A stretch of 64,000 nucleotides of DNA from positions 372,001 to 436,000 of the forward strand of contig NZ_LBHJ01000003.1 of assembly GCF_001006305.1 (NCBI RefSeq), written 5' to 3'. The notes below the pieces were generated by a model. The model was given only the letters and a program-made list of their open reading frames with translations, ran no database searches and had not been told where the DNA came from. Below are positions 21,639 to 51,455 of this stretch, one piece after another. Position 1 is the first letter of the stretch, and each line of letters begins with the position of its first letter. The stretch is from Silvibacterium bohemicum. Its GTDB lineage: Bacteria > Acidobacteriota > Terriglobia > Terriglobales > Acidobacteriaceae. The position numbers and the translations under genes were made by a program.

Positions 21639-21990
21639 GAGATGTCTCGTCAATGGCTCGAACCAGGATCATGCCATAAACAATTTACGAGATGAGCGCG
21701 AGGCCTCGCCAGCAGAGTTAAGGCACAGAAATATGAAATCAGAAAAGCTAGATACTAATTAGTCCAACTTATCGGCATTTAGTCAAAATTAAAAGTAAGT
21801 ATTGATATTTAAAGACAGGAGCAATCAAGGCGCCGCCTGTATCGTAGTTGAGCATGTTTTGCGGTCCTCTCCCCAAGGATCGAATTCTCCAATCTTTGAC
21901 TTATTAGAAATAGCCAGGAGCTTGTTGTCTCAAGGCGACAAGCGGAATCCAAGGCACCGGTTATTATCGTTTTTTGAATGTACTGTACTT
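21639..21990 (+). promoter_or_regulatory. AT-rich leader of the exopolysaccharide operon
   Basis: A 350-bp gap between the XRE gene and the export gene is strongly AT-rich at 21720-21815 (runs such as gtattgatatttaaag), unlike the surrounding DNA. It probably contains the operon promoter and a long leader. I saw no JUMPstart/ops element and no strong hairpin. Confidence 0.35.
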
Positions 21991-23010: not shown

Positions 23011-23051
23011 CGGAAGCGACCTCCGAATCGAAGGCGCGAAAGGACGAAGCG

Positions 23052-28193: not shown

Positions 28194-28217
28194 ACCCCGT
28201 CGCGGAGAAAGCGCATC

Positions 28218-29585
28218 ATGCCTCTTCTTGAGCAGGCACCCACAACCCGGAAACAGGCCGCCTCAGTCGAGAGCTTCGCCAGCGGACCTCTTGCAAATGT
28301 CCGGCCTTCCCGTGCGGTGGTCGTGCACAGCGGCGCGCGCGACGGCTACCAGCTGGCGCTCGCTCTGGAAGAGGCCGGGCTGCTGGAATGTCTAGTCACA
28401 GATTTGTTTTGGTCCCAGGACAGCCGCATAGCAAAAACTTTCAGCCGGGATCTTCCGAAAAAAGCGTTGGCTGCGCTGCTGCGCCGTAGTGTTCCGGGGC
28501 TGCCCGGGCGCAGACTCTTGCCATGTTCTAAGACCGGTCTGTGCGGGCTGTTGCTCGAAAAGCTGCCGCATATCCCGGTTGGCGTGCGCCGCAGCTTCAT
28601 GCGCTACGCGGATGGTGTGCTGGGTCGCACTGCAGGCCGCAGGGCAAGGAAGAAAGGCGCCGCGCTGGTTAGCTACAGCTACTACGGCTATGACGCGTTC
28701 AAGGCCTATGGCGCAGGCGGAATGCTCTTCCAGGTTCATCCACATCCCGCGACCATGCGCCGCATTCTCCTTGAAGAGCTGAAGCTCCATCCTGAATGTG
28801 CTGACTCGCTCAAGCTGGAGTGGGAACTCGCGCTTCCCGAACAGGACTTTCAGCACCTCGTGCAGGAGACCGAGATGGCCTCGCGCTATCTCGTTGCCTC
28901 TTCGTTCTCGCGGGACAGTCTCGTCGAACATGGCGCTTCGAAGAAATCCATCAACGTCATCCCCTACGGCATCGATCTCGATCGATTTCATCCAGATCCG
29001 GCGAAGTCCCGCAGTCGTAGCTCCAAGCTGCGCCTGCTTTTTGTGGGACGCATCAACCAGCGCAAAGGCGTGAAGTATCTGCTCGACGCGCTCCGCCTTC
29101 TCGATACGGATTCGGTGGAACTCACCGTGTGCGGCCGCGTCGTTGATGGGCTCGACCTCTTCCGCCCATTCGCCTCGCGCGTCGAGATTCGGCCCTCGGT
29201 GAGCGATGCCGATCTTGTGGCCGCCTACCAATCCGCCGACCTCTTCGTGTTTCCATCTTTAGGCGAAGGGTTCGGTCATGTGCTCCTGGAGGCGATGGCG
29301 TGCGGGCTCCCATTTCTTTCCACCACTCATACCGCCGCCCCGGATCTGATCGATGACGGAGTGCAGGGCTTCATCGTGCAGCCGCGGCGTCCCGACTTGC
29401 TTGCTGCCCGCATTGAATGGGCAATCCGGCACCGTGGCCAGCTGGAGGAGATGGGGACTCTCTCGCGAGATCGCGCACAGCATTTCACCTGGCAGCGCTT
29501 TCGCCGCGCTGCGGCCGAAGAAGTGCGAAGCTTCATGTTGGGAGAGGCCCTGCATGGCAAGGACCGGGGGCTGAAGGATGTTTGA
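28218..29585 (+). CDS. Glycosyltransferase family 4 type
   Basis: The 455-residue protein carries GT-B motifs: VVVHSGARDGYQLALALEEA at the acceptor half, LRLLFVGRINQRKGVKYLLD opening the donor half and LGEGFGHVLLEAMACGLPFL as the E-x7-E motif. A ribosome site (ggagaaag) precedes the ATG. It ends by overlapping the polymerase gene by eight bases. The N-terminal 30 residues are variable and may be dispensable. Its substrate is unknown, but the fucose genes of this locus make GDP-sugars plausible donors for at least one of these enzymes. Confidence 0.9.
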   Translation: MPLLEQAPTTRKQAASVESFASGPLANVRPSRAVVVHSGARDGYQLALALEEAGLLECLVTDLFWSQDSRIAKTFSRDLPKKALAALLRRSVPGLPGRRLLPCSKTGLCGLLLEKLPHIPVGVRRSFMRYADGVLGRTAGRRARKKGAALVSYSYYGYDAFKAYGAGGMLFQVHPHPATMRRILLEELKLHPECADSLKLEWELALPEQDFQHLVQETEMASRYLVASSFSRDSLVEHGASKKSINVIPYGIDLDRFHPDPAKSRSRSSKLRLLFVGRINQRKGVKYLLDALRLLDTDSVELTVCGRVVDGLDLFRPFASRVEIRPSVSDADLVAAYQSADLFVFPSLGEGFGHVLLEAMACGLPFLSTTHTAAPDLIDDGVQGFIVQPRRPDLLAARIEWAIRHRGQLEEMGTLSRDRAQHFTWQRFRRAAAEEVRSFMLGEALHGKDRGLKDV

Positions 29586-30945
29586 GATTCTGCTTGCCGC
29601 CGCAGCCGCACTCAGCATACTCGCGATCCTCTGCGCGCTCGATGTCAGCCAGGATGTCTTCCACCCTCTGGTCTTCGTCGGCCCCATGCTCGGCTTTCTC
29701 TACGCCTGGATGCCGTGGAAGCTCATCACTCTCGGCGGCCTCGATCTCTACTTTGACAACGACCAGCTTGTCTTTGTGCAGACATTGAACGTGCTTGGCA
29801 TCCTGGCGTTCGTAGCCTGCTGCCTTGGCGCCGGCGTGCGCATTCCTCGCCGGCAGAAGAGACGCGCAGCGCGGCTCTCCCAAAAAACGGTGCAGCGCCT
29901 CTTGATCGGCGGAAGCATCGCGGGCGGCATTGGCCTGCTCTGCTGGGCCATCACGATCGTCAATGTCGGTGGCTTCGTCAACGCCTACAGCGCGTCCTAT
30001 TCAGGTGGATGGGACGACAGCGGCTACATCCGCGACGGAAGCCTTCTGCTTCTCCTCGGTGTGCTCATGGCGGTCACCACGCGTTCTGCCGGTGGACCGC
30101 GCTGGCCCAGCTATACGATGATGGCGGTCTTCGGTCTTCCCTGGCTTTCATCCGCTTTGCTGATGGCGCGCCGCGGGCCGACCTTCGCGCTGGCCGCAAT
30201 TCTGCTCATGGGCTGGTATATCAACCGTACCAAGCGCCCGCCCCTCGTCGCCGTGGGCTTAGCCGGAGCCTGCCTCGGCTGGCTGGTGCTCTTTCTCGTA
30301 ACCAATCGCCAAAGCATCTATCTGGGCTCGAACTTCGACATGAAGACGGATGTCGGTGACATCATTGAAAAACCCGACACCGGCAACGAATGGATCTATG
30401 GAGCAGGCACGGTCCTGAGTTCACAGCAGCGCGGCCACTATTTCTGGATGCGACGCTACCTCGCGCAAGTTCTGGTCCGGCCCATTCCAAGCGCCATCTG
30501 GCCGACCAAGTATGAAGACTTCGGAGTACCGGAGCTTCTTCATAATGCCGGCACCGGTGAAGGCTTTACCGACGCTCTCAGCTGGGATGGCGCTGTAGGT
30601 TCGGCCCCCGGGATCGTCGCCGATCTATGGGTCGAAGTATGGTGGCTCGCCATTCCGTTCATGGGCCTTCTGGGCTGGATATATGGCTACGTGTGGAAGA
30701 AATCAGTCACACGCGGAGGCCCCTGGTCCAGTCAATTTGTTTTACTCTCCGCCTTATCCATTTACATGGTGATGCAGACCATGGAAGCAGTGATCTTCCG
30801 TACGCTACTGCTTTCTATTCCTTGTTGGCTGACCTGGCGATGGGCTCTTGCCCAGCCAGCGACGCGACGGCGGCCTGCTGTTCGCCATTTTGCACCAGCA
30901 TTCAGAACACAACCCTTGGTTTTGAGGAGTACCGATCGTGTTTAA
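29578..30945 (+). CDS. Wzy-like exopolysaccharide polymerase (membrane)
   Basis: The 455-residue protein is strongly hydrophobic with roughly 10-12 membrane helices and a large extracytoplasmic loop around residues 230-330 that includes NEWIYGAGTVLSSQQRGHYF and PSAIWPTKYEDFG. This is the shape of O-antigen polymerases, whose primary sequences are poorly conserved, so the call rests on topology and on its place among glycosyltransferases downstream of Wzx. It would link repeat units in the periplasm. Both ends overlap its neighbours by eight bases. Confidence 0.75.
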   Translation: MFEILLAAAAALSILAILCALDVSQDVFHPLVFVGPMLGFLYAWMPWKLITLGGLDLYFDNDQLVFVQTLNVLGILAFVACCLGAGVRIPRRQKRRAARLSQKTVQRLLIGGSIAGGIGLLCWAITIVNVGGFVNAYSASYSGGWDDSGYIRDGSLLLLLGVLMAVTTRSAGGPRWPSYTMMAVFGLPWLSSALLMARRGPTFALAAILLMGWYINRTKRPPLVAVGLAGACLGWLVLFLVTNRQSIYLGSNFDMKTDVGDIIEKPDTGNEWIYGAGTVLSSQQRGHYFWMRRYLAQVLVRPIPSAIWPTKYEDFGVPELLHNAGTGEGFTDALSWDGAVGSAPGIVADLWVEVWWLAIPFMGLLGWIYGYVWKKSVTRGGPWSSQFVLLSALSIYMVMQTMEAVIFRTLLLSIPCWLTWRWALAQPATRRRPAVRHFAPAFRTQPLVLRSTDRV

Positions 30946-32176
30946 CTCTCGACTTATTGGATTTGATGACCAAACTCACTCGCGGTGCCGAGCTGTGGTT
31001 CTCTGGATCGATTGGTACCCGTACCATGTAGCGCGATTCAAGGGGCTTCAGGCAGCCTTCGGCGTGAATGGCAAAGTGCGCGGGATCGAGTTAGTCGGAG
31101 GCATCGGTGTCCATGCGGGGCTGAAGTTTCGCGAAGAGCTGCCGCCCGGCCTTCCAGTCGATACGTTGCTTCCCGAGAGAAGCTGGCAGGAGGCAAGCAA
31201 GCTGGCCCTAGCCTTTGCTGTATGGCGCAAGCTGCAGGAACTCGGCCCGGAGATGGTTCTCGTACCTGGCTACTACACGCTGCCGGCGATCGCGGCAGCC
31301 GTCTGGGCAAAGGCGCACCGGCGCACCAGTGTCCTGATGACAGAGAGCGGTGCAGCGGACCACGTTCGAACAGCGTGGAAGGAAAAAGCGAAATCAATCC
31401 TGATCCGCACGTTATTCGATTGGATGGTGGCCGGTGGCGCCGCCCATGTGCGCTATCTCCGAGAGCTCGGCATCCAGGCGAATCGTATTCTCAATTTTTA
31501 TGATGTCGTCGACAACGACGAGCTGCGCAACCGCAGCATGGGGCTTCGACGCTCTTCCAGCGGAGCCGGCCATAACCTCCCGAAGAAATATTTTCTGTAC
31601 GTCGGTCGATTGGCGCCTGAGAAAAACGTGACCGGATTGCTGAATGCCTGGCTGAACTACCGTGCCAGCGGCGGCCAATGGTCACTTGTGCTCGCAGGAG
31701 ATGGGCCGGAAGCTTCGTCCCTGAAGAGTCTGGCATCCCAATCGTGTTTCGCTGCCGACGTCATCTTCGCCGGTCATAGAAATCAGTCCGCCCTGTCGCC
31801 CTTCTTCAGCTTTGCCAAGTGCTTCGTGCTGCCCAGCGTCCGTGAACCCTGGGGCCTCGTAGTCAATGAAGCTATGGCGGTAGGACTGCCGCTCATCGTG
31901 TCAAACCGGTGCGGGTGCGCTGAAGATCTCGTTGAAAAGGGAAGAAACGGTCTGCTGTTTGATCCTGAAGATAACGAGCAGTTGGCAGCTTGTCTCCATG
32001 AAATAGAAGAGACTTCGCCCCCCGAACTCACTCGCATGGGAGAACGGTCCCTGGAAATCATCGCCCGTTTTTCGCCTGAGAATTTCGGGAACGAGATCGT
32101 CAATATCGCCAATCGACTCGAGCACCGGGATGTACGGCCGGTGCGAAAGACAGCCTCGCCGGAGCGCGTCGCATGA
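30938..32176 (+). CDS. Glycosyltransferase family 4 type
   Basis: The 412-residue protein has a GT-B fold with FLYVGRLAPEKNVTGLLNAW at the start of the donor domain and SVREPWGLVVNEAMAVGLPL as the E-x7-E motif. It begins at GTG 30938, inside the end of the polymerase gene, and ends in an ATGA overlap with the next glycosyltransferase. Both features show tight translational coupling. Its sugar substrates are unknown. Confidence 0.88.
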   Translation: MFNSRLIGFDDQTHSRCRAVVLWIDWYPYHVARFKGLQAAFGVNGKVRGIELVGGIGVHAGLKFREELPPGLPVDTLLPERSWQEASKLALAFAVWRKLQELGPEMVLVPGYYTLPAIAAAVWAKAHRRTSVLMTESGAADHVRTAWKEKAKSILIRTLFDWMVAGGAAHVRYLRELGIQANRILNFYDVVDNDELRNRSMGLRRSSSGAGHNLPKKYFLYVGRLAPEKNVTGLLNAWLNYRASGGQWSLVLAGDGPEASSLKSLASQSCFAADVIFAGHRNQSALSPFFSFAKCFVLPSVREPWGLVVNEAMAVGLPLIVSNRCGCAEDLVEKGRNGLLFDPEDNEQLAACLHEIEETSPPELTRMGERSLEIIARFSPENFGNEIVNIANRLEHRDVRPVRKTASPERVA

Positions 32177-33414
32177 TAAATCCTGTCGAATCGCTGGCGG
32201 AGCAGCCGCAGCTATCGGCGCTGCCTGAGTCGCGGGGAAGATGGGTGCATGCTCTGACCCATCTCGATCCGAAATATGGTGGCCTGAGCGCCGCCGTTCC
32301 GCAGCTTGCGTCCAGCCTCGCTCTCGCGCATGGATTCTCCATCGACATCGCTGCCTTCACCGATCCCGAGGAAGACGCAACACTGCCGCAACATCCCGAG
32401 GTGCCTGTCTCGACATGGTCTGCCGATAGAAAACGATGGTTCCCGGGGGCGACAGCATCCCGGCGGTTTCGCGACCAGATGCGCGGAGCTGCGGGCGTGC
32501 ATATTCACGGGCTATGGGAAGCAAGCACCAACGTGAGCGCGCACACGGCGCGTTCGTTGCGAATCCCATATGTCGTCTCTGCGCATGGCATGCTCGAACC
32601 CTGGGCTCTCGCTAATAAGGGATTTAAGAAGCGAATCTATGCAAACCTGATCGAGCGGGAAAATGTGAATGGCGCCGCGTGCCTGCACGCTCTGACTCGC
32701 GCAGAGGCGCAAAATTACCGCACGTTCGGAAGCAGGCGATCGATCGCCATCATTCCGAATGGAGTACGCCTGCCTCACACTATCGATGGTTCCATCTTTT
32801 ACCATCGTTTTCCCAACCTCCGCGGCCAGCGTATCGTTCTTTTTCTGGGGCGCATTCATCTTAAGAAGGGCCTCCGGATTCTGATCGAATCCTGGGCGAA
32901 AGTTGCCACCCGGTTTCCCGATGCGACGCTAGTCCTCGCCGGCCCCGATTGCGAGAACTCACTGTCCGCTTTGCAGGAGTTGATCGCAGGGAAGCACATC
33001 ACGAATCGCGTCGTGTTTACCGGCATGCTGGTCAACGAGATGAAGTGGAGTGCTTTGGCCTCTGCCCATGCCTTCGTCCTGCCCTCTTATTCCGAAGGCC
33101 TGAGCGTTGCCACTCTCGAAGCAATGGGCATGGGGCTTCCCGTGATCATCTCTGAGCAATGTCATCTGCCCGAGGTGAAGGATCGAGATACAGGCTGGAT
33201 CGTTCAGACCGACGCGTCTTCGCTCGAGACCGCATTGGACAACATGTTGAGTAACTCTCCGGCAGTGAACGGCGAGATTGGCAATCGCGGGCGGCGTCTG
33301 ATCCACGAACGCTACAACTGGAAGGCCGTTTCTCGTCAGATGGCCGAACTCTATCTCTGGATCGCCGGAGGAAACGAGCCGCACACCTTTGAATTACTGA
33401 AGGGGCGAAGATGA
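32173..33414 (+). CDS. Glycosyltransferase family 4 type
   Basis: The 413-residue protein has typical GT4 features: GGLSAAVPQLASSLALAHGF near the N-terminus, RIVLFLGRIHLKKGLRILIE opening the donor half and YSEGLSVATLEAMGMGLPVI as the E-x7-E motif. Start and stop each share four bases (ATGA) with neighbours. It lies directly before the WcaF-like acetyltransferase, an order seen in colanic-acid-like clusters. Confidence 0.9.
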   Translation: MINPVESLAEQPQLSALPESRGRWVHALTHLDPKYGGLSAAVPQLASSLALAHGFSIDIAAFTDPEEDATLPQHPEVPVSTWSADRKRWFPGATASRRFRDQMRGAAGVHIHGLWEASTNVSAHTARSLRIPYVVSAHGMLEPWALANKGFKKRIYANLIERENVNGAACLHALTRAEAQNYRTFGSRRSIAIIPNGVRLPHTIDGSIFYHRFPNLRGQRIVLFLGRIHLKKGLRILIESWAKVATRFPDATLVLAGPDCENSLSALQELIAGKHITNRVVFTGMLVNEMKWSALASAHAFVLPSYSEGLSVATLEAMGMGLPVIISEQCHLPEVKDRDTGWIVQTDASSLETALDNMLSNSPAVNGEIGNRGRRLIHERYNWKAVSRQMAELYLWIAGGNEPHTFELLKGRR

Positions 33415-34007
33415 ACTCTCCCATCCAGCTTCGCAACTATGACAATTCCTGGTATTTGTCAGGGCGTTCCAAGGCATGGCGTATCGCGTGGATTTTTGCG
33501 GGCCTCCCTTTTTTTCGTTGCTCTCTTCTGCCTTTCTCATCGCTGCGAGTTGGCCTGCTGCGCCTCTTCGGCGCGCGCATCGGTGCCCGCGTCGTAATCC
33601 ATTCCGAAGTCACGGTCAAATATCCTTGGCACCTGACGATTGGCGATGACTGCTGGATCGGGGAACGCGCGTGGATCGACAATCTCACCGCCGTATGCCT
33701 CGGCAACAATGTATGTATCTCGCAAGGCGTATACCTCTGCACCGGAAACCACGACTGGAGCGACCCCGCCTTCGGACTCAAGATCGCTCCCATTTTCTTG
33801 CACGACGGAGCATGGGCCGCCGCAATGTGCAGACTCTTGCCTGGTGCGATTTTGCATGAGGGCGCAATCGCAGCCGCAGGCAGCGTGATCGCAGGAGAGG
33901 TGCCCGCGTGGGAAATCTTCAGCGGGAATCCCGCCGCCTTCGTGCGCCGACGTCACGTCCACGATGTGACTCACGCCGATCGGGAAGCGAGGATGGTCGC
34001 GTCATGA
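33411..34007 (+). CDS. WcaF-like O-acetyltransferase (hexapeptide repeat)
   Basis: The 198-residue protein has left-handed beta-helix hexapeptide repeats (IGARVVIHSEVTVKYPWHLT, then IGDDCWIGERAWIDN) and the WcaF-type CTGNHDWSDPAFGLKIAPI with the catalytic-type His in the GNHDW loop. It should acetylate a sugar of the exopolysaccharide repeat using acetyl-CoA. The N-terminal SWYLSGRSKAWRIAW segment is typical of WcaF. ATGA overlaps occur at both ends. Confidence 0.9.
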   Translation: MNSPIQLRNYDNSWYLSGRSKAWRIAWIFAGLPFFRCSLLPFSSLRVGLLRLFGARIGARVVIHSEVTVKYPWHLTIGDDCWIGERAWIDNLTAVCLGNNVCISQGVYLCTGNHDWSDPAFGLKIAPIFLHDGAWAAAMCRLLPGAILHEGAIAAAGSVIAGEVPAWEIFSGNPAAFVRRRHVHDVTHADREARMVAS

Positions 34008-35239
34008 GAATTCTGCTGCTCAACCAGTTCTTCTGGCCCGATTCGTCACCGACCAGCCAACTCCTCACCGACGTGGCGAAGGAGTTCGTGCGCGAGGGGC
34101 ACGAGGTATCCGTTATATGCGCCGATGGCAACTATGCGGTTGCCGATCAGGGAGAACCGCCCGCTGTAAAAGTCATTCGCGTCAAAGCTCTGCCTTTCGT
34201 GCGCGGCAGCGTGGGAAGGGTATTGTCCTACGCGTCGTTCTATGTTGCCGCGATCTGGCGCAGCATGGCTCTCGATAAGCCAGAGCTGGTCATCACGCTC
34301 ACCACGCCTCCGCTGCTTTCGCTGTTAGGCAATCTCCTCAAGATTCTGCGTGGCAGTCGCCACTTCATCTGGGAGATGGATATCTATCCCGATGTCGCCG
34401 TCGAGCTTGGCTATTTTCGCAGAGGAGGAATCGTCGCTCGTTTCACCGGCATTCTCGCCGATTGGTCACGGCGCCGCGCAGATGGAATTATCGCGCTCGG
34501 CGAGTGCATGAAGCAGAGACTCGTCGCTCGCGGTATCCCTCCAGAGCGCATAGCCGTCGCGGAGAACTGGGCAGATAGCGAAGCCATCGCGGTGCAGCCG
34601 CGGCTTAGGCAGTCATCAAACATCGTCGTGCTCTATTCCGGTAACTTCGGCCTCGCGCATGACATGGAGACAATTCTTAGCGCTATCCGCAATCTTGATC
34701 GGGATGCGCGCTTCCGATTTCGTTTCGTTGGAGGGGGCGCGCGCCACAAGGATCTCGCCAGGCATGTGTCGGAGGAGCATCTGCAGTCGGTTGAGTTGCG
34801 ATCGTATGTGCCGCGCGAACTGCTCGGCGATTCACTGGCAGCGGCGGATATTGGTCTGGTCACTCAAAGCGACGTTTGCTGTGGGGCTGTGGTTCCAAGT
34901 AAGGTTTACGGTTTGCTTGCCGCGGGCCGTCCCGTTCTTTACATCGGCCCGTCCGAAGCAACACCTGCGCGGATCGTGAGGCAGTTCGGTTGTGGATGGC
35001 ACATTCCTTGCGGCCAGGCCGGAGTGTTGACCGATCTGCTGCGCCATCTCGCAGATCATCCAGATGAGGTTCATACCGCGGGGCAGCGCGCACGAGAGGC
35101 GCTGCTCCTTCATTTCGATCGCCCTCTCGGCGTAGCACGTATCGCCGGCATCGTTGGCGCAAAGTCGCAGTCACCGGTTCCACGGATAATGCCCGTGGCG
35201 CTCGACACTGCGGCGTTACGTTCGCAAGCACGTCCGTAG
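34004..35239 (+). CDS. WcaI/WbuB-like glycosyltransferase
   Basis: From the ATG at 34004 the 411-residue protein begins MRILLLNQFFWPDSSPTSQL, the start of WcaI/WbuB-type GT4 enzymes. The donor half has VVLYSGNFGLAHDMETILSA and VVPSKVYGLLAAGRPVLYIG. The classic E-x7-E motif is replaced by this SKVYGxLAAGRP form, normal for the subfamily. The start overlaps the acetyltransferase stop by four bases, which settles it against the open frame further upstream. WcaI is a proposed fucosyltransferase of colanic acid, which fits the gmd/fcl pair at 44.7 kb. Confidence 0.88.
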   Translation: MRILLLNQFFWPDSSPTSQLLTDVAKEFVREGHEVSVICADGNYAVADQGEPPAVKVIRVKALPFVRGSVGRVLSYASFYVAAIWRSMALDKPELVITLTTPPLLSLLGNLLKILRGSRHFIWEMDIYPDVAVELGYFRRGGIVARFTGILADWSRRRADGIIALGECMKQRLVARGIPPERIAVAENWADSEAIAVQPRLRQSSNIVVLYSGNFGLAHDMETILSAIRNLDRDARFRFRFVGGGARHKDLARHVSEEHLQSVELRSYVPRELLGDSLAAADIGLVTQSDVCCGAVVPSKVYGLLAAGRPVLYIGPSEATPARIVRQFGCGWHIPCGQAGVLTDLLRHLADHPDEVHTAGQRAREALLLHFDRPLGVARIAGIVGAKSQSPVPRIMPVALDTAALRSQARP

Positions 35240-35270
35240 AACCCGGAAGGCTTTTACCCGGAGAAGTGCT

Positions 35271-36677
35271 ATGTACACCATCCTTGGCATCACAGCATTT
35301 GTTCTATGCCTCATTCTTACTCCGCTGTGCCGCGATCTTGCTCTGCGATTCGACATCGTCGACCGGCCGGACAGTAAGCGCAAGCTGCATGAGACGCCGA
35401 TCCCGCGGATTGGGGGCGTCGCCATCATGCTCGCTTATTCCATCGCCCTGGTCTCCGTATATCTGTTGACGCCGCCCAGCCAGAGGATCTACATCCGTCA
35501 TCACGAATTGTTCCTTGCGCTCGCGCCGGCCACGGCCATCATCTTTTTAACTGGGCTGCTCGACGACCTCATCGATCTCAAGCCCTGGCAAAAGCTCGCC
35601 GGCCAGGCCCTCGGCGCCGTTGTCGCCGTTGGATTGGGATCGCGCACCTCGCCGCACGAGCTATCCCTCGCCGCGCACCAGTCGATTCTGGCCTCGCCTT
35701 GGCTCAATCTTCCTCTGAGCGTGGTGTGGTTGCTCGGCTGCTCGAACGCGGTGAATCTGATCGATGGCCTCGATGGTCTCGCCTCCGGAATTGGTCTCCT
35801 CGCCACGCTCACCACCCTTGTGGCCGGAATCCTTAGTGGCAATGTTGGACTGGTGCTGGCCACCATTCCGCTCGCAGGCTGCCTGCTCGGCTTCCTGCGC
35901 TATAACTTTCATCCCGCTTCCATCTATCTCGGAGATTGCGGCAGCCTAACCATCGGCTTCCTGCTCGGCTGCTTTGGCTTGGTATGGGGTCAACGCAGCG
36001 GCACGCTTCTCGGGATGGCCGCTCCTATGATGGCGCTCGCCCTTCCGCTCATCGATGTGGGCTTAGCTATCTGCCGCCGTTATTTGCGCCGCGTACCCAT
36101 CTTCGCTGGGGATCGCGGCCACATCCATCACATCATGCTGGCGCGCGGATTCCGCACCAAAGATACTGCGCTGATTCTCTACGGCGTCTGCGCCATCGCC
36201 GCTTCGCTGGCCCTCATGCAGAGCTTCAGCGGTCTTTATCTTCACATCCCCGTCATCATCTTATTTGTCTTTTTAACTTGGATCGGCGTCCGCTCCCTGA
36301 ACTACATCGAATTCGGCGCTGCGCGTCGAGTCTTCTCGAAGCAGCACATCCTCGGTACCCTGCAGGAGGAAATCTACCTGAAAGATCTGGACCGCTCCCT
36401 CGCCCAGGCGCGAACGATCGAGAACTCCTGGGTGGTGGTCTGCAAGGCATGCAAAGAGATGCAGATCGCGACCGTGCAGATGCAGATCAGGAATACCAAC
36501 TTCGAGACTGTAATCGATTCTCGCGGCGGTCCTCAGCAATGGAAGATCACCGTCTCCCTCGGAGAGGACGGCCACCTGACCCTCAGTCGCTTCGGAGATG
36601 GTAAGCCACCCAAGCTTATGATCCCGGTTCTGGATCGATTGCAGAACGCCCTCGCCGCGCCTGCCGAGCGGGAGTAA
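35271..36677 (+). CDS. WecA-like polyprenyl-phosphate sugar-1-phosphate transferase with C-terminal extension
   Basis: The first 340 residues form a multi-helix MraY/WecA transferase: GLLDDLIDLKPWQK (the DDxxD site), NAVNLIDGLDGLASG, YLGDCGSLTIGF and AGDRGHIHH are all present. It should attach the first sugar phosphate, probably GlcNAc-1-P, to undecaprenyl phosphate. About 120 extra residues follow, with a segment VVVCKACKEMQIATVQMQI and a predicted alpha/beta pattern but no named domain; it may be a cytosolic regulatory domain. It is 31 bp from the upstream gene and ends the main run of same-strand biosynthetic genes. Confidence 0.9.
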   Translation: MYTILGITAFVLCLILTPLCRDLALRFDIVDRPDSKRKLHETPIPRIGGVAIMLAYSIALVSVYLLTPPSQRIYIRHHELFLALAPATAIIFLTGLLDDLIDLKPWQKLAGQALGAVVAVGLGSRTSPHELSLAAHQSILASPWLNLPLSVVWLLGCSNAVNLIDGLDGLASGIGLLATLTTLVAGILSGNVGLVLATIPLAGCLLGFLRYNFHPASIYLGDCGSLTIGFLLGCFGLVWGQRSGTLLGMAAPMMALALPLIDVGLAICRRYLRRVPIFAGDRGHIHHIMLARGFRTKDTALILYGVCAIAASLALMQSFSGLYLHIPVIILFVFLTWIGVRSLNYIEFGAARRVFSKQHILGTLQEEIYLKDLDRSLAQARTIENSWVVVCKACKEMQIATVQMQIRNTNFETVIDSRGGPQQWKITVSLGEDGHLTLSRFGDGKPPKLMIPVLDRLQNALAAPAERE

Positions 36678-37649: not shown

Positions 37650-39404
37650 CTAGTGTGACGAATCCGCCGGGCTGGGCTTCCACGTGCCCGCACTCCGATA
37701 CATTGCGACGATCGTGGGATCGTTCGCCTGCCAGTAGTCCGCGTGTCCCATCAGCACATCGCCGGTCCTGACCGAGTTCACAAGCTGGGATTCGGCAGCC
37801 GCGAGTTTCTCGGCGTCGACATCGTTGACCATGTTGACGCTGAACGCATCCGGATAATAGCTTCGCACGATCGGATCGGTCCCAAGATCGCCATGATCGA
37901 TAAAGCTGAGAAATGGAGCCGTGTATCCATAGTGCTTGGGCGTGGCCTCTTCGGGCATGATCAGTGAATCGGGCAGCGCTGCGGCGAGCTTTTGAAAGAT
38001 ATCCGCGTCGAGAATCGCGCCATCCTGCTCCACGCTCGAGTCCACGTAGAACAGGGTCGCTCCCCATCTGTCATGGGCAAAGCGCATCTTGCCTAGCAAT
38101 TCGCTGAAAGTCTCGGTGTCCTGAAGATAGACCTGCTGCGCCGTCCCGCCGGCACCGGGAGTAAAGTGCTGGGGCCGCACGCAGACGCCTACACGAAAGC
38201 CGGCGCTCGTCATGATCTTGAAGTAGGCATCGTCGAGTTTCATCCCCTTATAAGGCGAGGCGCGATCGGTGATCGTCGTCTCCATCTCCGGAGCGATCTG
38301 CGCGATGTTGTCAGGCTCACAGACATAACTCGTACTTTGCGGATATTCTTCGCCTTCGATGTCCCACGTAATGGCGCCCTGAGCATCCATCTTCTGCAGA
38401 TTCGCGACGTTGTCAGAAGCCTGTTGCAGGATGCGAGCCTGGAACGCTGCAATCCCGGCCGCTGTTCTCACATCGAAGTCCGAAGCGGTATCGTCGTCGA
38501 AATACCGGCGCGGATTGTTAGGAAATCCCCCGGCCTTTTGTGGATCTCCCGCTGGGGAGCTGGCTAGAAAGACCGTGCCGATCGCTCGCCTGTCATTCCA
38601 ATGCAGTGTCGCGGGCCATGCCTTGGCCCAGTTCGCGAACACATCCGAAGCCACTTTCACCGCTGATGTTCCGGATGGAGCAAACCTCAGCGACACCGTG
38701 AATGTAATGGTCTGGTTAGGCTTCACCGTGCGATCGTTGTGAGGCTGAAACACCGCCAGGCCATCAGGCGCCGTGCCGCTGATGATCGGAGAGTAAGCGA
38801 TCCCGCTTCCGGCCGGCAAAAATCCGCTGTACAGGGGAGAAGTCGCGTCCGGAACGGCGGCCGTCACCTGTCCTGATCCGTAGTCGGCAACGGTAACGCT
38901 CGGCCCTGTCGTGTTGAAAGCAAGCTGGGGGTAGCTGGGGTTGCCGAAGCTCGCAGGCAACTTCGGCAGGTGAAGCGCGAAGGGATAGATCACTGCTCCG
39001 TCGAGAATCACACCCGACCCGGCCCGGTTCATCTCCGTCACAGTCATATCCAGGTTCGCGCCTTTCTGCGCAAACTTCACTTGGATCTCGCCCCACTCAA
39101 AACGGTAGGTCCAGGTATTAGTACTGGAGTTCCAACTCTTGCCGTCGTTGTTCTCGCCCCATCCATACTGTCCCTCCGAAAGGACTTTGCCTGAGAGGTC
39201 GGTCATCTTCATGTGCCATATATGGAAAGCATCGGATGGGTTTTGAGCCAGATCTTCAAGTACTACGCTGTTGTAAACGAGCCGTTGCACTCCCGACGGC
39301 CCATATGTGATCGAAAGCCCCGATTGGGCAGTCAACCATCTTCCCATTACGAAGGCTAGGCAAAGACCCGTCACCGCCAATGGAGGAAGCGATCTGAGTT
39401 TCAT
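37650..39404 (-). CDS. Secreted glycosidase-like protein, unassigned family
   Basis: From the ATG at 39404 a signal peptide (LPPLAVTGLCLAFVMGRWLT, cleaved near AQS) leads a 584-residue secreted protein. The first 250 residues are beta-rich (YGPSGVQRLVYNSVVLEDL, TYRFEWGEIQVKFAQKG). The second half looks like a TIM barrel, with DAQGAITWDIEGEEYP, KLDDAYFKIMTSAGFRVGVC and RWGATLFYVDSSVEQDGAIL, each placing acidic residues at strand ends as in glycoside hydrolases. I cannot name a family. It is the only minus-strand gene inside the polysaccharide locus before the sortase pair, which suggests polymer trimming or release. A longer frame to 39437 exists. Confidence 0.7.
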   Translation of the reverse strand: MKLRSLPPLAVTGLCLAFVMGRWLTAQSGLSITYGPSGVQRLVYNSVVLEDLAQNPSDAFHIWHMKMTDLSGKVLSEGQYGWGENNDGKSWNSSTNTWTYRFEWGEIQVKFAQKGANLDMTVTEMNRAGSGVILDGAVIYPFALHLPKLPASFGNPSYPQLAFNTTGPSVTVADYGSGQVTAAVPDATSPLYSGFLPAGSGIAYSPIISGTAPDGLAVFQPHNDRTVKPNQTITFTVSLRFAPSGTSAVKVASDVFANWAKAWPATLHWNDRRAIGTVFLASSPAGDPQKAGGFPNNPRRYFDDDTASDFDVRTAAGIAAFQARILQQASDNVANLQKMDAQGAITWDIEGEEYPQSTSYVCEPDNIAQIAPEMETTITDRASPYKGMKLDDAYFKIMTSAGFRVGVCVRPQHFTPGAGGTAQQVYLQDTETFSELLGKMRFAHDRWGATLFYVDSSVEQDGAILDADIFQKLAAALPDSLIMPEEATPKHYGYTAPFLSFIDHGDLGTDPIVRSYYPDAFSVNMVNDVDAEKLAAAESQLVNSVRTGDVLMGHADYWQANDPTIVAMYRSAGTWKPSPADSSH

Positions 39405-39989
39405 AGAGAAACCTGTAACCGGGATTTGAGAAATCATCTGGACCCGAGCTATCAGGGTCCAAGCCGGAGCGATTCGATCGAGCTGTACAGGAACTATAAA
39501 CGCCTGGAGTATGCAAAAAACCAGAACCTTTGAGAAGCTTCATGGCATAACAACGTTCTTCTGGACGCATCGGCTTCGTTGTTGGATTTCACACTACTTG
39601 CCGAAGTAAAAATTCTTCGGAAAAGCCGCTCCGGACCCAATCACCTGCGGGCCAAAAGGGAGGCTAATTCCGACCCGGAAATACTATCCGGTTACTTTTT
39701 ACATATTGCCCGATTACCTGGGAAGCCGTCTCAAAGCCGTCCGTAAAACCATGGTTAGTTACTACGTTAGCTGATTTACTTACACCAAAATTCGCGTCCG
39801 ATTAGCTTGAACGACATTACTTTCAAGTCAACCTTTCTTGATGTGGGTGCATACAATCGATTGCAACCGATAACATCCCGCGGCGCACGACGCGCGGGCA
39901 AGGCACCCCGGTCCGATCGATGGCTACCGGCAACTAGATATTTGGCACGGCAGTAAAGAACGTCAAGCATCCGGTTTAAAAGGGGACTT
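39405..39989. other. Divergent regulatory region of XRE module 2
   Basis: The 585-bp gap separates the secreted glycosidase-like gene from the second XRE gene. It contains an inverted repeat ccgaag-8-cttcgg at 39601-39620 and a GC-rich one (cccgcg and cgcggg) near 39877-39898. It resembles the long leader of the first XRE gene in length and AT-rich patches but not in detail. No convincing coding frame is present. Confidence 0.4.
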
Positions 39990-40361: not shown

Positions 40362-40517
40362 CTTCTAACCACATCGGCCGAACGCGCCTGTTGTCAAGAC
40401 TCAAGCCGATCATGGACACGCCACCGCCATGGCGGCTCCCGGGTGGCAAGTTGAGAATTGCAGCTCGATCCTGAACAGCCGCGTCTCTTTCCGACGCAGA
40501 AATATCGAGGCTCTGCG

Positions 40518-42785
40518 ATGAAACTATCGGCATGGGATACGGGAAACAGTCAACCGCATCTTGCCAGCGAACTCGATATCGAACTTGTTGACGGCGCTGA
40601 GGAATCGCAAGAAGATCCGGTGCAGGAATCGGCGGTCCTCAGGCTGGTCGCCGAAGGCCGTCTTACTATGTTTCGGCATCATCGCCTCGTCCTGCTCTGG
40701 GCAGTCGCAGGCTTGCTCGCTGGAATTCTCATTCAGCTTCCCCTGCAGCCAGTCTACCGAGCCCGCGTATTCCTTCAGGTCCAGTCTCCAGCTTTCGCCG
40801 CCAATCATTCGGACACTCCTCCATCCACCGTCAGTCTGGAAACTCACATCAGACTCGTCGGGAGCAATGAAACTCTAGCAGGTGTCGAACAAGGCTTGAT
40901 CGAAGATCCGCAGGCGGTACCTGTTCAGCGTAGAGACTGGCTCTCGCGATTACAGCGGGTGCTTCAAATCGGCGGAAAAGATTCCATTCCGCTTTCAGCC
41001 CTCATCGATCAGTCAGCAAGAAGTATGCGCGGCTGGCGAGTGGGGAGTACGCCGATGATCGAGGTGAGCTGTAGTTCCTGGAATCCGGAGTTCGCAGCAA
41101 AGTACTGCAACATGCTGACCGCCGAAGTCCAACGCGAAGACATTCAGAGTCGCGGGGCAATGGCTACGATGACCAGCGACCTGCTCATACGTGAGGCAGC
41201 CATCGTCCAGGCCAGGTTGAAAGACGCGGAACGCAGACAGAAAGAGAAGACCGGCCGGGATCGTTACACTTCGCCGCAGACGGCCGCTAACGCTGGTCAG
41301 GATCTCCTCCAGCATTTGCAGGCCGAGTTGATCAAAGCGCAGGCCGAGCGCATGGCCCGGCGGGCGCAGATGCAGGCTGCCACTTCAAGCGATACCTCCG
41401 AGATCGCGGACCCAACGGCCTATGCAGCCTCCCAGTCTCGTCTGACCAAGCTGCAGATAGCCCTCAACGAGATGCCGTCCAAGACGCGCACTCAGGATGC
41501 AAAGCGTCTTCGTCTGAATGCGGAAATCAAACGTGTCGAAGCGGAAATCTCCGCGGAGCGTGAAGCGGCCATGCAGCGCCTCCAGGCCCAATACGAGGCA
41601 GCAGAGCATCGCGAGGATCTCCTTACCCTCTCCCTGCGGACACTTGAGTCGAGGCAGCCGCCCAATTCGCAAAACACGCCGGAGGAACAGCTGCGCCAGG
41701 AAGTCGCAAACGGCAGGCAGCTTTATCAGGCATTGCTTGAGCATGCCAGAGAAGCAGGGTTCAGCTCTGCGGCTCAAACGTCATTTGTGCGCGTGGTCGA
41801 GCGGGCCACAACTCCGCGGTCTGCGGTTTATCCCCATCGCCTGCCCTTTGCTGTTGCTGGATCAGCCTTCGGTGCATGCGTCGGTTTAGGATTGGCTTTC
41901 TTCAAGGACCGCAATCGAGCTGTGCTGCGCCTGCCCGGCGAAAGCACGAAGCTGCTTGGCGTAGAGGAGCTGGGCGTGATTCCTGCGGCAACGAAAGAGC
42001 CGCTCTTGCCGCACAGGAAGGCTGTTCACCCGCTTGCCCCTTCGCATACGAGATCTCCATCAGCCGCTCTGAGAACCGCACGCTGGGACCAGGATTTCTC
42101 TCTGGCCGCTGAAGCTTACCGCAACGCGATGTTGTCCATCCTGCTCGCCAAGCCTGAAAGGAAACGGCAAGTCTATATCGTCTCCTCACCCGGCACGGGC
42201 GAAGGCAAAAGCACCATCGCCACCAACCTCGGCGTAGCCCTCAGTAAATCTGGCTTGCGGGTGGTTCTCATCGATGGCGACCTGCGCAGACCCTGTCTCC
42301 ATCGCACGCTCGGGGTGCCCAATGGGCTTGGCCTGAGAAATATCCTGCGAGGCGAGGTGAATCTCGAGAGCGCCGTCTCGCTCTACTGCAAGGCTACTGT
42401 ATTTCCTAAGCTCTGCGTAATTCCGGCCGGCAGCGGAAGGGAACAGATCGCTGAATTGTTTCCTACCATGCTCTTCGGCGCGCTGGTGGAGCGCCTCGCG
42501 CGTGATTACGACATAATCCTCGTCGATACGCCACCCATCGGTCCTAGCGATGACGCCCACATCCTCGCTCAGAACACGAGCGGCGCCATCCTCGTACTTC
42601 GCTCCGACTTTACCCCTCGTGAAGACGCGGTTCGTGCGCGCGAAGTTCTTGAGCAGCATCACGTAACTATCATCGGGACGATCCTCAACGACTTCAATCC
42701 GTCGAAGGAAGGCAGATACGACTACTACGGCTCCTACTACGCCTACGAGCACAAGATAAAAGAAAGCCCGAACGCCGGCTCCTGA
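40518..42785 (+). CDS. Wzc/GumC-like chain-length regulator and tyrosine kinase 2
   Basis: The 755-residue protein repeats the architecture of the kinase at 23052: a Wzz domain with flanking membrane helices, coiled coils, then a BY-kinase with Walker A SSPGTGEGKSTIATNLG, Walker A' VVLIDGDLRRP and Walker B DIILVDTPPI, and a tyrosine tail YDYYGSYYAYEH. The catalytic motifs are intact, so it is not a dead copy. The start at 40518 (MKLSAWD) was preferred to the 20-codon longer frame, which has no conserved features. Its periplasmic part is more diverged from kinase 1 than its kinase part, consistent with a different partner or polymer length. Confidence 0.93.
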   Translation: MKLSAWDTGNSQPHLASELDIELVDGAEESQEDPVQESAVLRLVAEGRLTMFRHHRLVLLWAVAGLLAGILIQLPLQPVYRARVFLQVQSPAFAANHSDTPPSTVSLETHIRLVGSNETLAGVEQGLIEDPQAVPVQRRDWLSRLQRVLQIGGKDSIPLSALIDQSARSMRGWRVGSTPMIEVSCSSWNPEFAAKYCNMLTAEVQREDIQSRGAMATMTSDLLIREAAIVQARLKDAERRQKEKTGRDRYTSPQTAANAGQDLLQHLQAELIKAQAERMARRAQMQAATSSDTSEIADPTAYAASQSRLTKLQIALNEMPSKTRTQDAKRLRLNAEIKRVEAEISAEREAAMQRLQAQYEAAEHREDLLTLSLRTLESRQPPNSQNTPEEQLRQEVANGRQLYQALLEHAREAGFSSAAQTSFVRVVERATTPRSAVYPHRLPFAVAGSAFGACVGLGLAFFKDRNRAVLRLPGESTKLLGVEELGVIPAATKEPLLPHRKAVHPLAPSHTRSPSAALRTARWDQDFSLAAEAYRNAMLSILLAKPERKRQVYIVSSPGTGEGKSTIATNLGVALSKSGLRVVLIDGDLRRPCLHRTLGVPNGLGLRNILRGEVNLESAVSLYCKATVFPKLCVIPAGSGREQIAELFPTMLFGALVERLARDYDIILVDTPPIGPSDDAHILAQNTSGAILVLRSDFTPREDAVRAREVLEQHHVTIIGTILNDFNPSKEGRYDYYGSYYAYEHKIKESPNAGS

Positions 42786-42818: not shown

Positions 42819-43484
42819 CTAGCCTTTATCGGGAGCAGCCGAGAGCAGGTGCGCGTGTACGATAAAACGCCGCGGCGCCGCGCCAATGTAGTTGAAGGGA
42901 TAGCAGGTGATGAGGGTCAGCATCGGCTGCGCGGCGATGTTCAGCACTTTGACCTCATCAGGATCGACGATCTCTGTCGAGTCGACACGGTACCAGTAAG
43001 CGCCTCCGGCCCCGGTCACCTTGATCTGCATGCCCGCGCGAATCTGCCGCAACGGGCGGAAGAAGGTGTCGCGATGGCCCGCGATGCCCATGGTGCCAAG
43101 CCCCCCTGGAAACGCCGTTCCGGGTACATGGCCGGCTCCGCGCAGCAATCCTTCTTTCGTGATATCCGCCGTAATCGGTACAGCGAGACCAATCTGTGCA
43201 ATCTCCATCCGCCCGATCACAGCGGTAGGATCGCCCTCCGGCCCCAGGCTCGCGGCGGGAACGATCTCCTCCCGCGCGTCTTGAGATGAGGGCCGAGAAG
43301 GGGATGAGGACTGTGAAGGCTGCCCGATCGCAGCCGCGGCCTTTTGCGACGCGTGCATCTGCAAGCCGGCCCACCCGCAATAGAGCATTGCGAGCAGGCC
43401 GGCTGAAGTCAGCAGCAGTTGCGCTGCACGCGCAACCTGGCGGCCTCTGTGTTTAGGCCTGTTCTCAGGCAGCATCATCTGCAC
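42819..43484 (-). CDS. Sortase (Gram-negative, class D-like)
   Basis: The 221-residue protein has an N-terminal membrane anchor (about residues 20-40), a Ser/Pro-rich linker and a sortase beta-barrel. The catalytic residues are His137 in GIAGHRDTFF, Cys194 in LTLITCYPF and Arg206 in APRRFIVHAH. It would cut an LPxT-type signal in the periplasm and form an acyl-enzyme that passes the protein to an amine acceptor. In Gram-negative bacteria the acceptor is unknown. Its start overlaps the end of the LPHTA-bearing gene by 20 bp, so the two are co-translated and the upstream protein is the likely substrate. Class assignment is tentative. Confidence 0.92.
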   Translation of the reverse strand: MQMMLPENRPKHRGRQVARAAQLLLTSAGLLAMLYCGWAGLQMHASQKAAAAIGQPSQSSSPSRPSSQDAREEIVPAASLGPEGDPTAVIGRMEIAQIGLAVPITADITKEGLLRGAGHVPGTAFPGGLGTMGIAGHRDTFFRPLRQIRAGMQIKVTGAGGAYWYRVDSTEIVDPDEVKVLNIAAQPMLTLITCYPFNYIGAAPRRFIVHAHLLSAAPDKG

Positions 43485-44274
43485 GGCGGCTAAAACTCAA
43501 AACTCCAGCCGCGAAGAGCGACAACAGACCACCGATCAGAATCAGCGGCAGGTTGCTGGCAGTGTGCGGCAACTTTGCCAGCACCGGCTTGCGCCTCACG
43601 CTAAGAGACTGGGGTGCGGGTGCAGGCGGAGCTGCAGGGGGCTCGTTCTGCGCAACCTCCTGGGGCGGCGCCGGTTGAGCGGTCTGCGGTGCCTGATAGC
43701 GTGCCGCCTGGATTGCCGGCTGCGTCGCATCCTTCGGTCCAACCGTTGTCGGCGTGAGGGTCCAGAGTGTGACCATCGCCATGTCTTCCTTCGAGAGGGT
43801 GTTGTCCTTCACGACCATTCCTTCGGAGGCAGGATCGATGGCGGGCACCGTTCCGCCGCTCTTCTTGGCAATCGCCACAGCCTGGTCTTTGGGATAAACA
43901 AATTCGACCGCGCCACCCCCAGGGAATGAGAAGCCGCGCAGAGCGCCCTCGTGATCGGAGGACAAATTCCAGGAGATAGGACCTGCGACCCCGCTGCTCA
44001 GCCCGGAATTCGGCACTCCGAGGAAGGTGGAATGCAATTTTCCCTTGGCGTCATCGACGCGCAGCACGATGCGATCAGAAAGGTGATCGACAACAGTAAT
44101 GGAGTAGCTTCCGGGTTTGAGCTTGTCGTTAGGAATCTCCGTCGGAGACGTGACGGAAAATGTGGAGGTGAGGGAAACGGCGGCTGGATCTGCGGGAGCC
44201 AAAGGAGCAGCGATTAAGGATGCGGCTGAACCTACGCTAACTATTACTCCCCAAACCGATGGATGAAGTCGCAT
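43465..44274 (-). CDS. Secreted sortase substrate with LPHTA signal
   Basis: The 269-residue protein has a signal peptide (VWGVIVSVGSAASLIAAPLA), a beta-rich domain of about 150 residues (TSPTEIPNDKLKPGSYSITV near its start), a Pro/Ala/Gln-rich linker and a complete cell-wall-type sorting signal: LPHTA at residues 235-239, a hydrophobic helix LPLILIGGLLSLFAAGV and the basic tail SFSRR. The mature domain resembles small secreted proteins common in this phylum; no catalytic role is evident. The start at 44274 has aagga eight bases upstream. The gene leads a two-gene operon with the sortase. Confidence 0.88.
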   Translation of the reverse strand: MRLHPSVWGVIVSVGSAASLIAAPLAPADPAAVSLTSTFSVTSPTEIPNDKLKPGSYSITVVDHLSDRIVLRVDDAKGKLHSTFLGVPNSGLSSGVAGPISWNLSSDHEGALRGFSFPGGGAVEFVYPKDQAVAIAKKSGGTVPAIDPASEGMVVKDNTLSKEDMAMVTLWTLTPTTVGPKDATQPAIQAARYQAPQTAQPAPPQEVAQNEPPAAPPAPAPQSLSVRRKPVLAKLPHTASNLPLILIGGLLSLFAAGVLSFSRRADDAA

Positions 44275-44737: not shown

Positions 44738-45823
44738 TTGAAGAAAGCTCTGATCACCGGAGTAACGGGTCAAGATGGCGCATATCTCGCCGATTTCCTG
44801 CTCAAAAAGGGTTACGAGGTTCACGGCATTAAGCGCCGGAGTTCACTGTTCAACACCGATCGTATCGATCACATTTACGAAGACCCACATATTGAAGGGC
44901 GTCGTTTCATCCTCCACTATGGCGATCTCACCGACTCCACTTCGCTGATTCATATCGTGCAAAAAGTGCAGCCGGATGAGATCTATAATCTGGGGGCGCA
45001 AAGTCACGTAAAAGTTTCCTTTGAAGAGCCCGAGTACACCGCCAATTGCGATGCGCTTGGACCTCTGCGTCTCCTTGAAGCTATCCGCATCCTCGGCATG
45101 GAGAAGAAGACCCGCTTTTATCAGGCGTCGACCTCTGAGCTTTACGGTCTCGTTCGCGAAGTTCCTCAAAAAGAGAGCACGCCCTTCTATCCGCGGTCAC
45201 CCTACGCAGTCGCCAAAATGTATGCCTTCTGGATCACGGTCAATTATCGCGAAGCTTATGGCATGTATGCCTGTAACGGAATTCTCTTCAATCACGAGTC
45301 TCCGATGCGCGGGGAAACTTTCGTGACGCGAAAAATTACGCGCGCCCTTGCGCGCATTAAAGCCGGCCTGCAGGAAACGCTGTTTCTTGGCAATATTGAT
45401 GCGCTGCGCGATTGGGGTCACGCACGCGACTACGTAGAAATGCAATGGTTGATGCTGCAGCAGCAAGAAGCAAAAGATTATGTCATTGCGACGGGCGAGC
45501 AACATAGTGTGCGGGACTTCGTGAACCTGAGCGCCGGCATGCTCGATTTCAAGTTGCATTGGCAGGGGTCCGGTGTTGACGAACGCGCTTACGATGATCG
45601 GAATCGGTTGGTCGTGGCAGTAGATCCGCGTTATTTTCGTCCTACTGAAGTCGAAACACTGCTGGGCGATCCATCGAAAGCCAAGCGAGAGTTGGGCTGG
45701 GAGCCTCAAACCAGCTTTCTTCAGCTCGTTCAAGAGATGGTCGCAGCCGATTTCGAGTCAGCGAAGCGAGATGCGCTTGTGAAGCGTCATGGCTTCACTG
45801 CGTATAATTTTCATGAGTCCTGA
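44738..45823 (+). CDS. gmd: GDP-mannose 4,6-dehydratase
   Basis: The 361-residue protein is a short-chain dehydrogenase-type dehydratase: NAD(P) motif [19 protein letters not shown] at the start, [18 protein letters not shown] typical of Gmd, STSELYG, and the YxxxK pair in [11 protein letters not shown]. It converts GDP-D-mannose to GDP-4-keto-6-deoxymannose, the first step to GDP-L-fucose. The TTG at 44738 is the likely start because gaggtg lies seven bases upstream and the nucleotide-binding motif begins at residue 7. It is followed after 12 bp by fcl. No manC or manB is in the window, so GDP-mannose must come from elsewhere. Confidence 0.96.
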
Positions 45824-45838
45824 GGTGCAGAGCTATTG

Positions 45839-46807
45839 ATGCGGAGCTCCGAAAAAATCTTTGTAGCGGGGCACCGTGGGTTGGTAGGCAGCGCCATCTG
45901 CCGCGAGCTGGAGCGCCAGGGTTATCACGACGTTCTGCTTCGATCACGGCTCGAATTAGACTTGACGGACAGGACTGCAACCCGTCTTTTTTTTGAGCGA
46001 GAACGTCCTGATTATGTCTTTCTCGCGGCGGCAAAAGTTGGTGGTATCGCTGCCAACCGTGCATATCCCGCGGATTTCATTCGCGAAAATCTTGAAATTC
46101 AGACCAGCGTAATCGATGCCGCCTACCGCTGCGGAGTGCAGCGTCTGCTTTTTCTCGGCTCGAGTTGTATCTATCCTAAGCTTTGCCCCCAGCCAATCAA
46201 GGAAGAGTATTTGTTGACCGGGCCGCTTGAGCCCACGAACAAAGCGTATGCACTAGCCAAGATCGCGGGCATCGAAATGTGCTGGTCATACAACCAGCAA
46301 TACAAAACACAATTTGTGGCTGCCATGCCTACCAACCTGTATGGTCCGAATGACAACTTTGACCCTACGAATTCCCATGTGCTGCCGGCCCTGATTAGAA
46401 AAACAATTGAGGCGAAGGCTTCAGGACAACCCAGTATTACTGTTTGGGGAACAGGTGAACCACACAGGGAATTTCTCTTCAGCGATGACCTGGCGCAGGC
46501 GTGCATCTTTCTGATGAACCTGCCTGACGCGGAGTTCAACAGTCTTTTGACCTCTGAAGCACCGCCGCTCGTTAATGTTGGTTCAGGCACAGATCTGACA
46601 GTCCGCGAGTTGGCGGAGTTGGTTTGCAGAATAGTAGGTTTCGATGGCGAGCTGGTTTTCGATACGACGCGGCCTGATGGAACTCCGCGCAAGCTTTTGG
46701 ATGTCAGCCGTATTCATTCACTCGGGTGGGAAGCGAAAACTAACCTCGAGGACGGGATTCGCCGCACTGTCCTAGGTTTGGAAGATCGATTCCGCCCCGT
46801 CTCTTAG
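45839..46807 (+). CDS. fcl: GDP-L-fucose synthase
   Basis: The 322-residue protein has the epimerase/reductase features of WcaG/Fcl: AGHRGLVGSAICRELERQG, FLAAAKVGGIAANRAYPADF, LFLGSSCIYPKLCPQPIKEE and the YxxxK pair in AYALAKIAG. It turns GDP-4-keto-6-deoxymannose into GDP-L-fucose by epimerisation and NADPH reduction. The ATG at 45839 is preferred over the adjacent TTG. With gmd it provides an activated deoxysugar for the exopolysaccharide. It ends the biosynthetic locus; the next genes run toward it on the other strand. Confidence 0.96.
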   Translation: MRSSEKIFVAGHRGLVGSAICRELERQGYHDVLLRSRLELDLTDRTATRLFFERERPDYVFLAAAKVGGIAANRAYPADFIRENLEIQTSVIDAAYRCGVQRLLFLGSSCIYPKLCPQPIKEEYLLTGPLEPTNKAYALAKIAGIEMCWSYNQQYKTQFVAAMPTNLYGPNDNFDPTNSHVLPALIRKTIEAKASGQPSITVWGTGEPHREFLFSDDLAQACIFLMNLPDAEFNSLLTSEAPPLVNVGSGTDLTVRELAELVCRIVGFDGELVFDTTRPDGTPRKLLDVSRIHSLGWEAKTNLEDGIRRTVLGLEDRFRPVS

Positions 46808-51228: not shown

Positions 51229-51455
51229 TCCTGTCGGGGCTTGTCCACCAACATAGTAGGAACGGGCCGCAGACCAGCGCTCGTCAATGCAGTAGCGCGG
51301 CTGCGCGCCCTTCCTTGGATTGGGAGTGCCTCATAGCTGTGCAAAATAGGTGGCTCTATTCAATCCCGATGAGGCTTGTGCCTTATCAGGCATAGCGGGG
51401 AGACTATGAGGCATTCCGCTTCTAAATCCCACCATTGCACGACCGGGAGAGAAAA

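Follow-up and report, generated by a model that had tools for sequence, protein, structure and literature searches.

Introduction

Sortases are protein-anchoring enzymes and are usually a Gram-positive trait. Among the described systems, the class D sortase SrtC of B. anthracis is encoded in an operon with an LPNTA substrate and uses meso-diaminopimelate (m-DAP) as nucleophile (PMC3297441). Gram-negative hosts are represented by the proteobacterial class GN sortase (TIGR03784), which is dedicated to an LPXTG target (TIGR03788) encoded by the adjacent gene (PMC3237569), and by the PEP-CTERM/exosortase (EpsH) system, in which a C-terminal sorting signal is tied to exopolysaccharide (EPS) (PMC1569441). 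Gram-positive pilins carry the motif WxxxVxVYPKN, whose lysine is situated towards the C-terminal end of the N-terminal head domain and serves as nucleophile in polymerisation (PMC5536039).

Both Gram-negative sortases whose targets are encoded next to them and class D sortases of Bacillota are, accordingly, already known. No paper on acidobacterial sortases was found in the open-licence literature and, as far as this literature was searched, the combination of a class-D-like sortase and a substrate family dedicated to it, without a Pfam match and widespread in a diderm phylum, is new, as are a clade-specific linkage of such a pair to EPS genes and a lysine that depends on the sorting signal. 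Here, we describe a sortase and its substrate encoded in a window of 64,000 nucleotides, by which we mean the whole stretch of DNA that was analysed. With one enzyme and one detectable substrate in two adjacent genes, the system is unusually clean and makes the question of the role and the acceptor of sortases in outer-membrane bacteria directly testable.

Results and discussion

The sortase and its substrate

The two open reading frames of the pair were found just where the first-pass annotation had placed them:

42819..43484, minus strand: class-D-like sortase of 221 aa with an N-terminal transmembrane (TM) helix and the catalytic residues H137, C194 and R206
43465..44274, minus strand: sortase substrate of 269 aa, counted from the ATG at 44274, with a signal peptide (about residues 1-24), a beta-rich region (about 34-192) that includes EFVYPK (E124-K129), a Pro/Ala-rich linker, LPHTA (235-239), a TM helix (242-268) and an Arg-Arg tail
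43465..43484, minus strand: region shared by both genes, 20 bp long if the sortase starts at the GTG and 11-14 bp if it starts at one of the downstream ATGs

The sortase is assigned to PF04203 at 98 bits (Pfam, cut-off 26.6, E 4.2e-28). Its AlphaFold2 model (pLDDT 88) shows a sortase-like beta domain preceded by a single long helix at the N-terminus, and solved sortases in the PDB match the model down to E 3e-13 in a structure search. His137, Cys194 and Arg206 are invariant across 34 aligned sortase homologues, in agreement with the catalytic triad that had been proposed for this protein. The substrate scores 23.1 bits against the LPXTG-type sorting signal profile Gram_pos_anchor (PF00746, cut-off 20), and its model shows a signal helix (5-21), the beta domain (about 34-192) at high confidence, the linker at lower confidence and the C-terminal helix (242-268). 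Profile and model together bear out the earlier description of this protein as having a signal peptide, LPHTA, a helix and a basic tail, the tail (...SRRADDAA) being modestly basic only. An alignment of 39 substrates, a sample chosen as signal-bearing, shows no variation at Pro243 or at the L, P and T of LPxT. A lipoprotein start was ruled out since the signal peptide has no lipobox Cys.

The beta domain of the substrate has no match in Pfam, a profile search of PDB sequences with the substrate came back empty, and a fold search of the domain against the PDB gave no Foldseek match below E 0.001 and VIA-align Z scores never above 4.6. We therefore deduce no function from the fold, and a missing match is not proof of a new one.

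The stop codon of the substrate gene (43465-43467) is situated inside the sortase reading frame, whose GTG is at 43484. Two ATGs just past this GTG, read by eye, would reduce the overlap to 14 or 11 bp, and by eye there is no Shine-Dalgarno sequence clear enough to favour either of them; the overlap of 20 bp noted before thus stands if the GTG is the start. Sigma-70 promoters and terminators predicted in the window were not above chance, and no Rfam match was obtained within it.

The host is a soil bacterium with a genome of 6.46 Mb on 25 contigs, and its nearest named relatives are Acidobacteriaceae/Terriglobus. The genome contains an LptD gene, which implies an LPS-type outer membrane and hence a diderm host, as the first-pass annotation had assumed in calling the bacterium Gram-negative. 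According to profile searches, on which these counts rest, the whole genome encodes one sortase, one Gram_pos_anchor protein above the cut-off and a single protein of the substrate family.

Class assignment and comparison with known systems

Class D scored best of all sortase classes for the sortase of the window, with values below the cut-offs of both the NCBIfam class D model (NF033746, 115.1 vs 165) and the SrtD LPxTATN model (NF058671, 129.6 vs 140), and we therefore label it class-D-like. A relative from Terriglobia (L074) exceeds the SrtD cut-off (147.1 vs 140). The class D trait of an LPxTA-type substrate next to the sortase is present, with LPHTAS in the window and LPxT[A/G] in relatives, and in two relatives from Bacillaceae an LPNTAS substrate adjoins the sortase. 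The pair thus resembles B. anthracis SrtC with BasI/BasH in its class D-type sequence, adjacent substrate gene and LPxTA signal, and differs from it in the LptD-containing diderm host, the unrelated beta domain and the lack of an sctRS-like regulator next door.

Other classes were considered and rejected. Class GN was ruled out by a TIGR03784 score of 76.5 bits (cut-off 158.25), and the substrate has no TIGR03788 match, although the two systems share a Gram-negative host and a sortase dedicated to the target in the adjacent gene. The sortase is also below the cut-offs of classes E and C; the lid motif of class C (DP[WFY]) before the catalytic domain is absent from 29/29 close-clade sortases, and none of the C-termini inspected in this clade resembles a TM helix. 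A PEP-CTERM/exosortase system at this locus was ruled out by the LPHTA signal and the PF04203 enzyme: exosortases are multi-TM proteins unrelated to the true sortase found here, which also shows no general EPS linkage.

Distribution and co-inheritance of the pair

Sortases were detected in 130 of 299 Terriglobia genomes (~43%), and in most of about 60 fully read sortase loci an LPxT[A/G] protein is encoded at most a few genes away. Since the pair recurs in dozens of genomes at roughly 40-66% sortase identity, it is not a product of chance. The clade of the window comprises 31 rows of the sortase tree (support 98/90). In this close clade, the substrate gene is located directly upstream of the sortase gene, overlapping it or within ~20 bp, and an adjacent LPxT[A/G] substrate is present in essentially all loci, the gene at L186 being without a recognised motif. 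Full-length members of the substrate family were found in 17/25 sortase-bearing vs 0/25 sortase-less genomes (Fisher 1e-7; 50 genomes not picked for phylogenetic independence). At the level of sequence, these comparisons show that a single-pass sortase with a full triad and one predicted secreted partner bearing LPHTA are inherited together.

We consider it very improbable that the pair is a non-functional relic. The patchy distribution, with a sortase in 2/9 genomes of the genus (several of the others incomplete), and the substrate gene of L032, which is split into two reading frames, would fit such a relic, but the reading frames are otherwise intact and the triad and the sorting motif are invariant at roughly 40-66% identity. 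The split gene (L032/L193), which is positioned upstream of the sortase, encodes a domain of 196 aa and a protein of 118 aa with LPQTAS, possibly as the result of a frameshift or an assembly error.

Three other arrangements recur in Terriglobia. In about 20 of 62 loci (L074, L112, L116, L122 and others), the order is LPxTA substrate, VWFA protein (TIGR03436) and sortase. The secreted VWFA protein encoded in the middle is reminiscent of the class GN target, also a VWFA protein, and has a weak similarity to TIGR03788 (34.5 bits); the pair of the window has no such gene between its members. Proteins of a second, unrelated substrate family, which combine two beta repeats in tandem with LPxT[A/G/S], are encoded downstream of the sortase in 8 loci (e.g. 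L117, L093, L105 and L077), and the member that was scanned has no Pfam match. The third arrangement includes a short protein with LPxxSS, in some cases followed by an oxidoreductase-like gene.

Proposed mechanism

On balance, we lean towards a dedicated two-gene sorting unit of class D type in a diderm bacterium, by which the substrate is anchored, likeliest to m-DAP of the peptidoglycan. The substrate would be exported by Sec, lose its signal peptide and stay tethered to the inner membrane through its C-terminal helix, whereupon Cys194 would cut LPHTA between Thr and Ala from the periplasmic side. The acyl-enzyme would then hand the substrate, via its new C-terminal Thr, to an amine. By analogy, this amine would most likely be on the side chain of m-DAP, in lipid II or in the peptidoglycan; we regard peptidoglycan as the leading acceptor because B. 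anthracis SrtC, with its LPNTA substrate and m-DAP as nucleophile, is the best available guide. The expected product is a beta-domain protein with its C-terminus fixed to the peptidoglycan, projecting into the periplasm.

The sortase could also act mainly as a processing protease, which cuts LPHTA at the same bond with water as acceptor, so that the beta-domain protein would end up free in the periplasm. The substrate domain has homologues among short and apparently free secreted proteins that lack a sorting signal, so a released form could function. As nothing in the sequence singles out hydrolysis, and both triad and sorting signal are as in transpeptidating relatives, we regard it as quite improbable.

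A lysine that accompanies the sorting signal

The substrates share the motif EFVYPK, in which Lys129 follows strand 122-125 of the model, within the N-terminal beta domain. This lysine is present in 94% of 34 non-redundant signal-bearing members vs 14% of 22 signal-less homologues (raw counts 50/52 vs 3/26), which is the largest difference among the substrate-domain columns compared. The test is post hoc, as the motif was noticed in six signal-less homologues and twenty further regions were fetched afterwards. Phe125 is invariant throughout, in signal-bearing and signal-less proteins alike, and most of them also have Tyr127; an alanine of the helix that follows EFVYPK is also differential. The signal-less homologues, which a single lysine separates from the signal-bearing members, provide natural controls for this system.

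The combination of a VYPK-like motif and a lysine conserved together with the sorting signal is reminiscent of the sortase-assembled pilins of Gram-positives, and plain anchoring to peptidoglycan leaves the lysine, as judged from these alignments, unexplained. This makes covalent polymerisation a rival to be reckoned with: Lys129 would accept the Thr of the LPHT of another subunit, and the resulting polymer would perhaps finally be anchored to peptidoglycan. The lysine is located in the N-terminal domain in both systems, and a homopolymer could arise from one sortase and one substrate. Several observations make us consider polymerisation rather unlikely nevertheless. Two substrates have Gln (L066) or Arg (L119) in place of Lys129 despite their sorting signal; the close-clade sortases lack the class C lid and, as far as inspected, TM-like C-termini; and, in difference to the Gram-positive pilins, no Cna or pilin domain was found (Pfam) in what is a single small substrate. 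In addition, the signal-less homologues often end near EFVYPK, without the following helix, so that the lysine could track this helix, and a fibre would have to cross the outer membrane or remain periplasmic. An intramolecular isopeptide bond between K129 and D/N67, with E124 as catalyst, was discarded as an explanation: the residues required are in place, but D/N67 is likewise found in the signal-less homologues.

Linkage to exopolysaccharide genes

In the window, the pair is surrounded by genes for EPS and sugar nucleotide synthesis:

21802..36677, plus strand: EPS cluster with Wza, Wzc, Wzx, glycosyltransferases, a hexapeptide transferase and a glycosyl transferase of family 4
29578-30945, plus strand: protein of 455 aa within this cluster, without a Pfam match
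37650..39437, minus strand: putative secreted protein associated with the EPS cluster, possibly hydrolase-like, without a match in Pfam or among PDB sequences
40458..42785, plus strand: Wzc-type bacterial tyrosine kinase/chain-length determinant, convergent with the sortase gene and 33 bp apart from it
44738..46807, plus strand: gmd and fcl for GDP-fucose synthesis, transcribed divergently from the substrate gene

The Wzc-type protein has a Tyr-rich tail and scores above the cut-off of TIGR01007 (126.7 bits), gmd is above the cut-off of TIGR01472 (581 bits) and fcl is below its cut-off (460.5 vs 500 bits). From this setting the first-pass annotation had suggested the EPS or its machinery as acceptor of the substrate and had proposed a survey of the linkage. 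Both the Wzc and the fucose genes do flank the pair in the window, but neither is a conserved neighbour; gmd and fcl were not found beside the pair in any close-clade relative.

Across the class, the survey did not support the proposal: EPS-type genes are present within 9 kb of 8/59 sortases vs 5/40 control loci, the latter being arbitrary loci drawn from the same genome set. These controls rule out a general EPS linkage of acidobacterial sortases, and we retain it for the clade of the window only. In this clade, EPS or EPS-type genes are located within 1.5 kb of 8/30 other pairs vs 3/40 controls, and 4/40 controls have EPS-type genes within 3-5 kb. If any EPS match within 3 kb is counted, clade and controls do not differ significantly (p 0.07); if a strong match or at least two genes are required, the counts are 8/30 vs 1/40 (p 0.004). 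Both p-values are indicative only, as three query proteins originated from loci that scored positive, the stricter requirement was chosen post hoc and the relatives are not independent.

Five of the eight EPS-adjoining pairs are accompanied by orthologues of the glycosyltransferases of the window and/or of the secreted protein at 37650-39437. L032, L175, L188 and L194 have kept the last genes of the EPS cluster beside the pair, with the orthologous glycosyltransferases in the same order as in the window, and L192 shares the secreted protein. This protein, which occurs in 13/398 genomes of the family and always together with the EPS cluster, directly adjoins the pair in four relatives; in L175 and L192, it follows the sortase on the same strand at distances of 72 bp and 47 bp, respectively. 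The pair of L088 adjoins a WbaP-like transferase, with a Wzc gene ~6 kb away, and those of L031 and L064 adjoin genes that are Wzz/CpsD-like by architecture and weak similarity (marginal support in Pfam). Counted by hand, the sortase tree has 14 deep branches that are informative, and EPS-linked pairs fall on ~7 of them, a pattern compatible with an old linkage that was later lost in places.

The 455-aa protein is a specific marker of the EPS cluster and identified 14/398 genomes of the family. A close-clade sortase is present in 8 of these 14 vs 23/384 other genomes (Fisher 1e-6, kinship ignored), and six of the eight adjoin the cluster. The remaining 6/14 genomes have no close-clade sortase, and at five cluster loci of such genomes (L219-L223) no sortase was found beside the EPS cluster. 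The same applies to L224, where the genome (G578) carries its close-clade pair on another contig. As the EPS cluster also occurs without the pair, the pair is not needed for this EPS and is accessory at most.

Attachment of the substrate to the EPS or its machinery, or a non-covalent action on the EPS after anchoring elsewhere, would account for the eight linked pairs on about half of the deep branches, for the co-occurrence of pair and cluster and for the gene order in L175 and L192. We nevertheless judge it improbable. Linkage is lacking across the class, most pairs, those of the close clade included, are situated away from EPS genes, and sortases require a primary amine, which most EPS sugars do not offer. 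What stands of the earlier proposal is a linkage and co-occurrence limited to the clade. A role of the pair beside EPS in some lineages is plausible, and under anchoring to peptidoglycan, which we favour, the fixed substrate may serve the envelope zone of the EPS machine in these lineages in a non-essential manner. A more speculative and in our estimate doubtful picture is that the class-D-like sortase builds a fibre or mesh through LPHT-Lys129 bonds in the Gram-negative envelope, in some lineages beside the EPS machine.

Farther along the window (51435-55312, plus strand), a Pro-kumamolisin activation domain and a subtilase with Ig repeats are encoded on two overlapping reading frames, possibly a single sedolisin-like gene with a frameshift.
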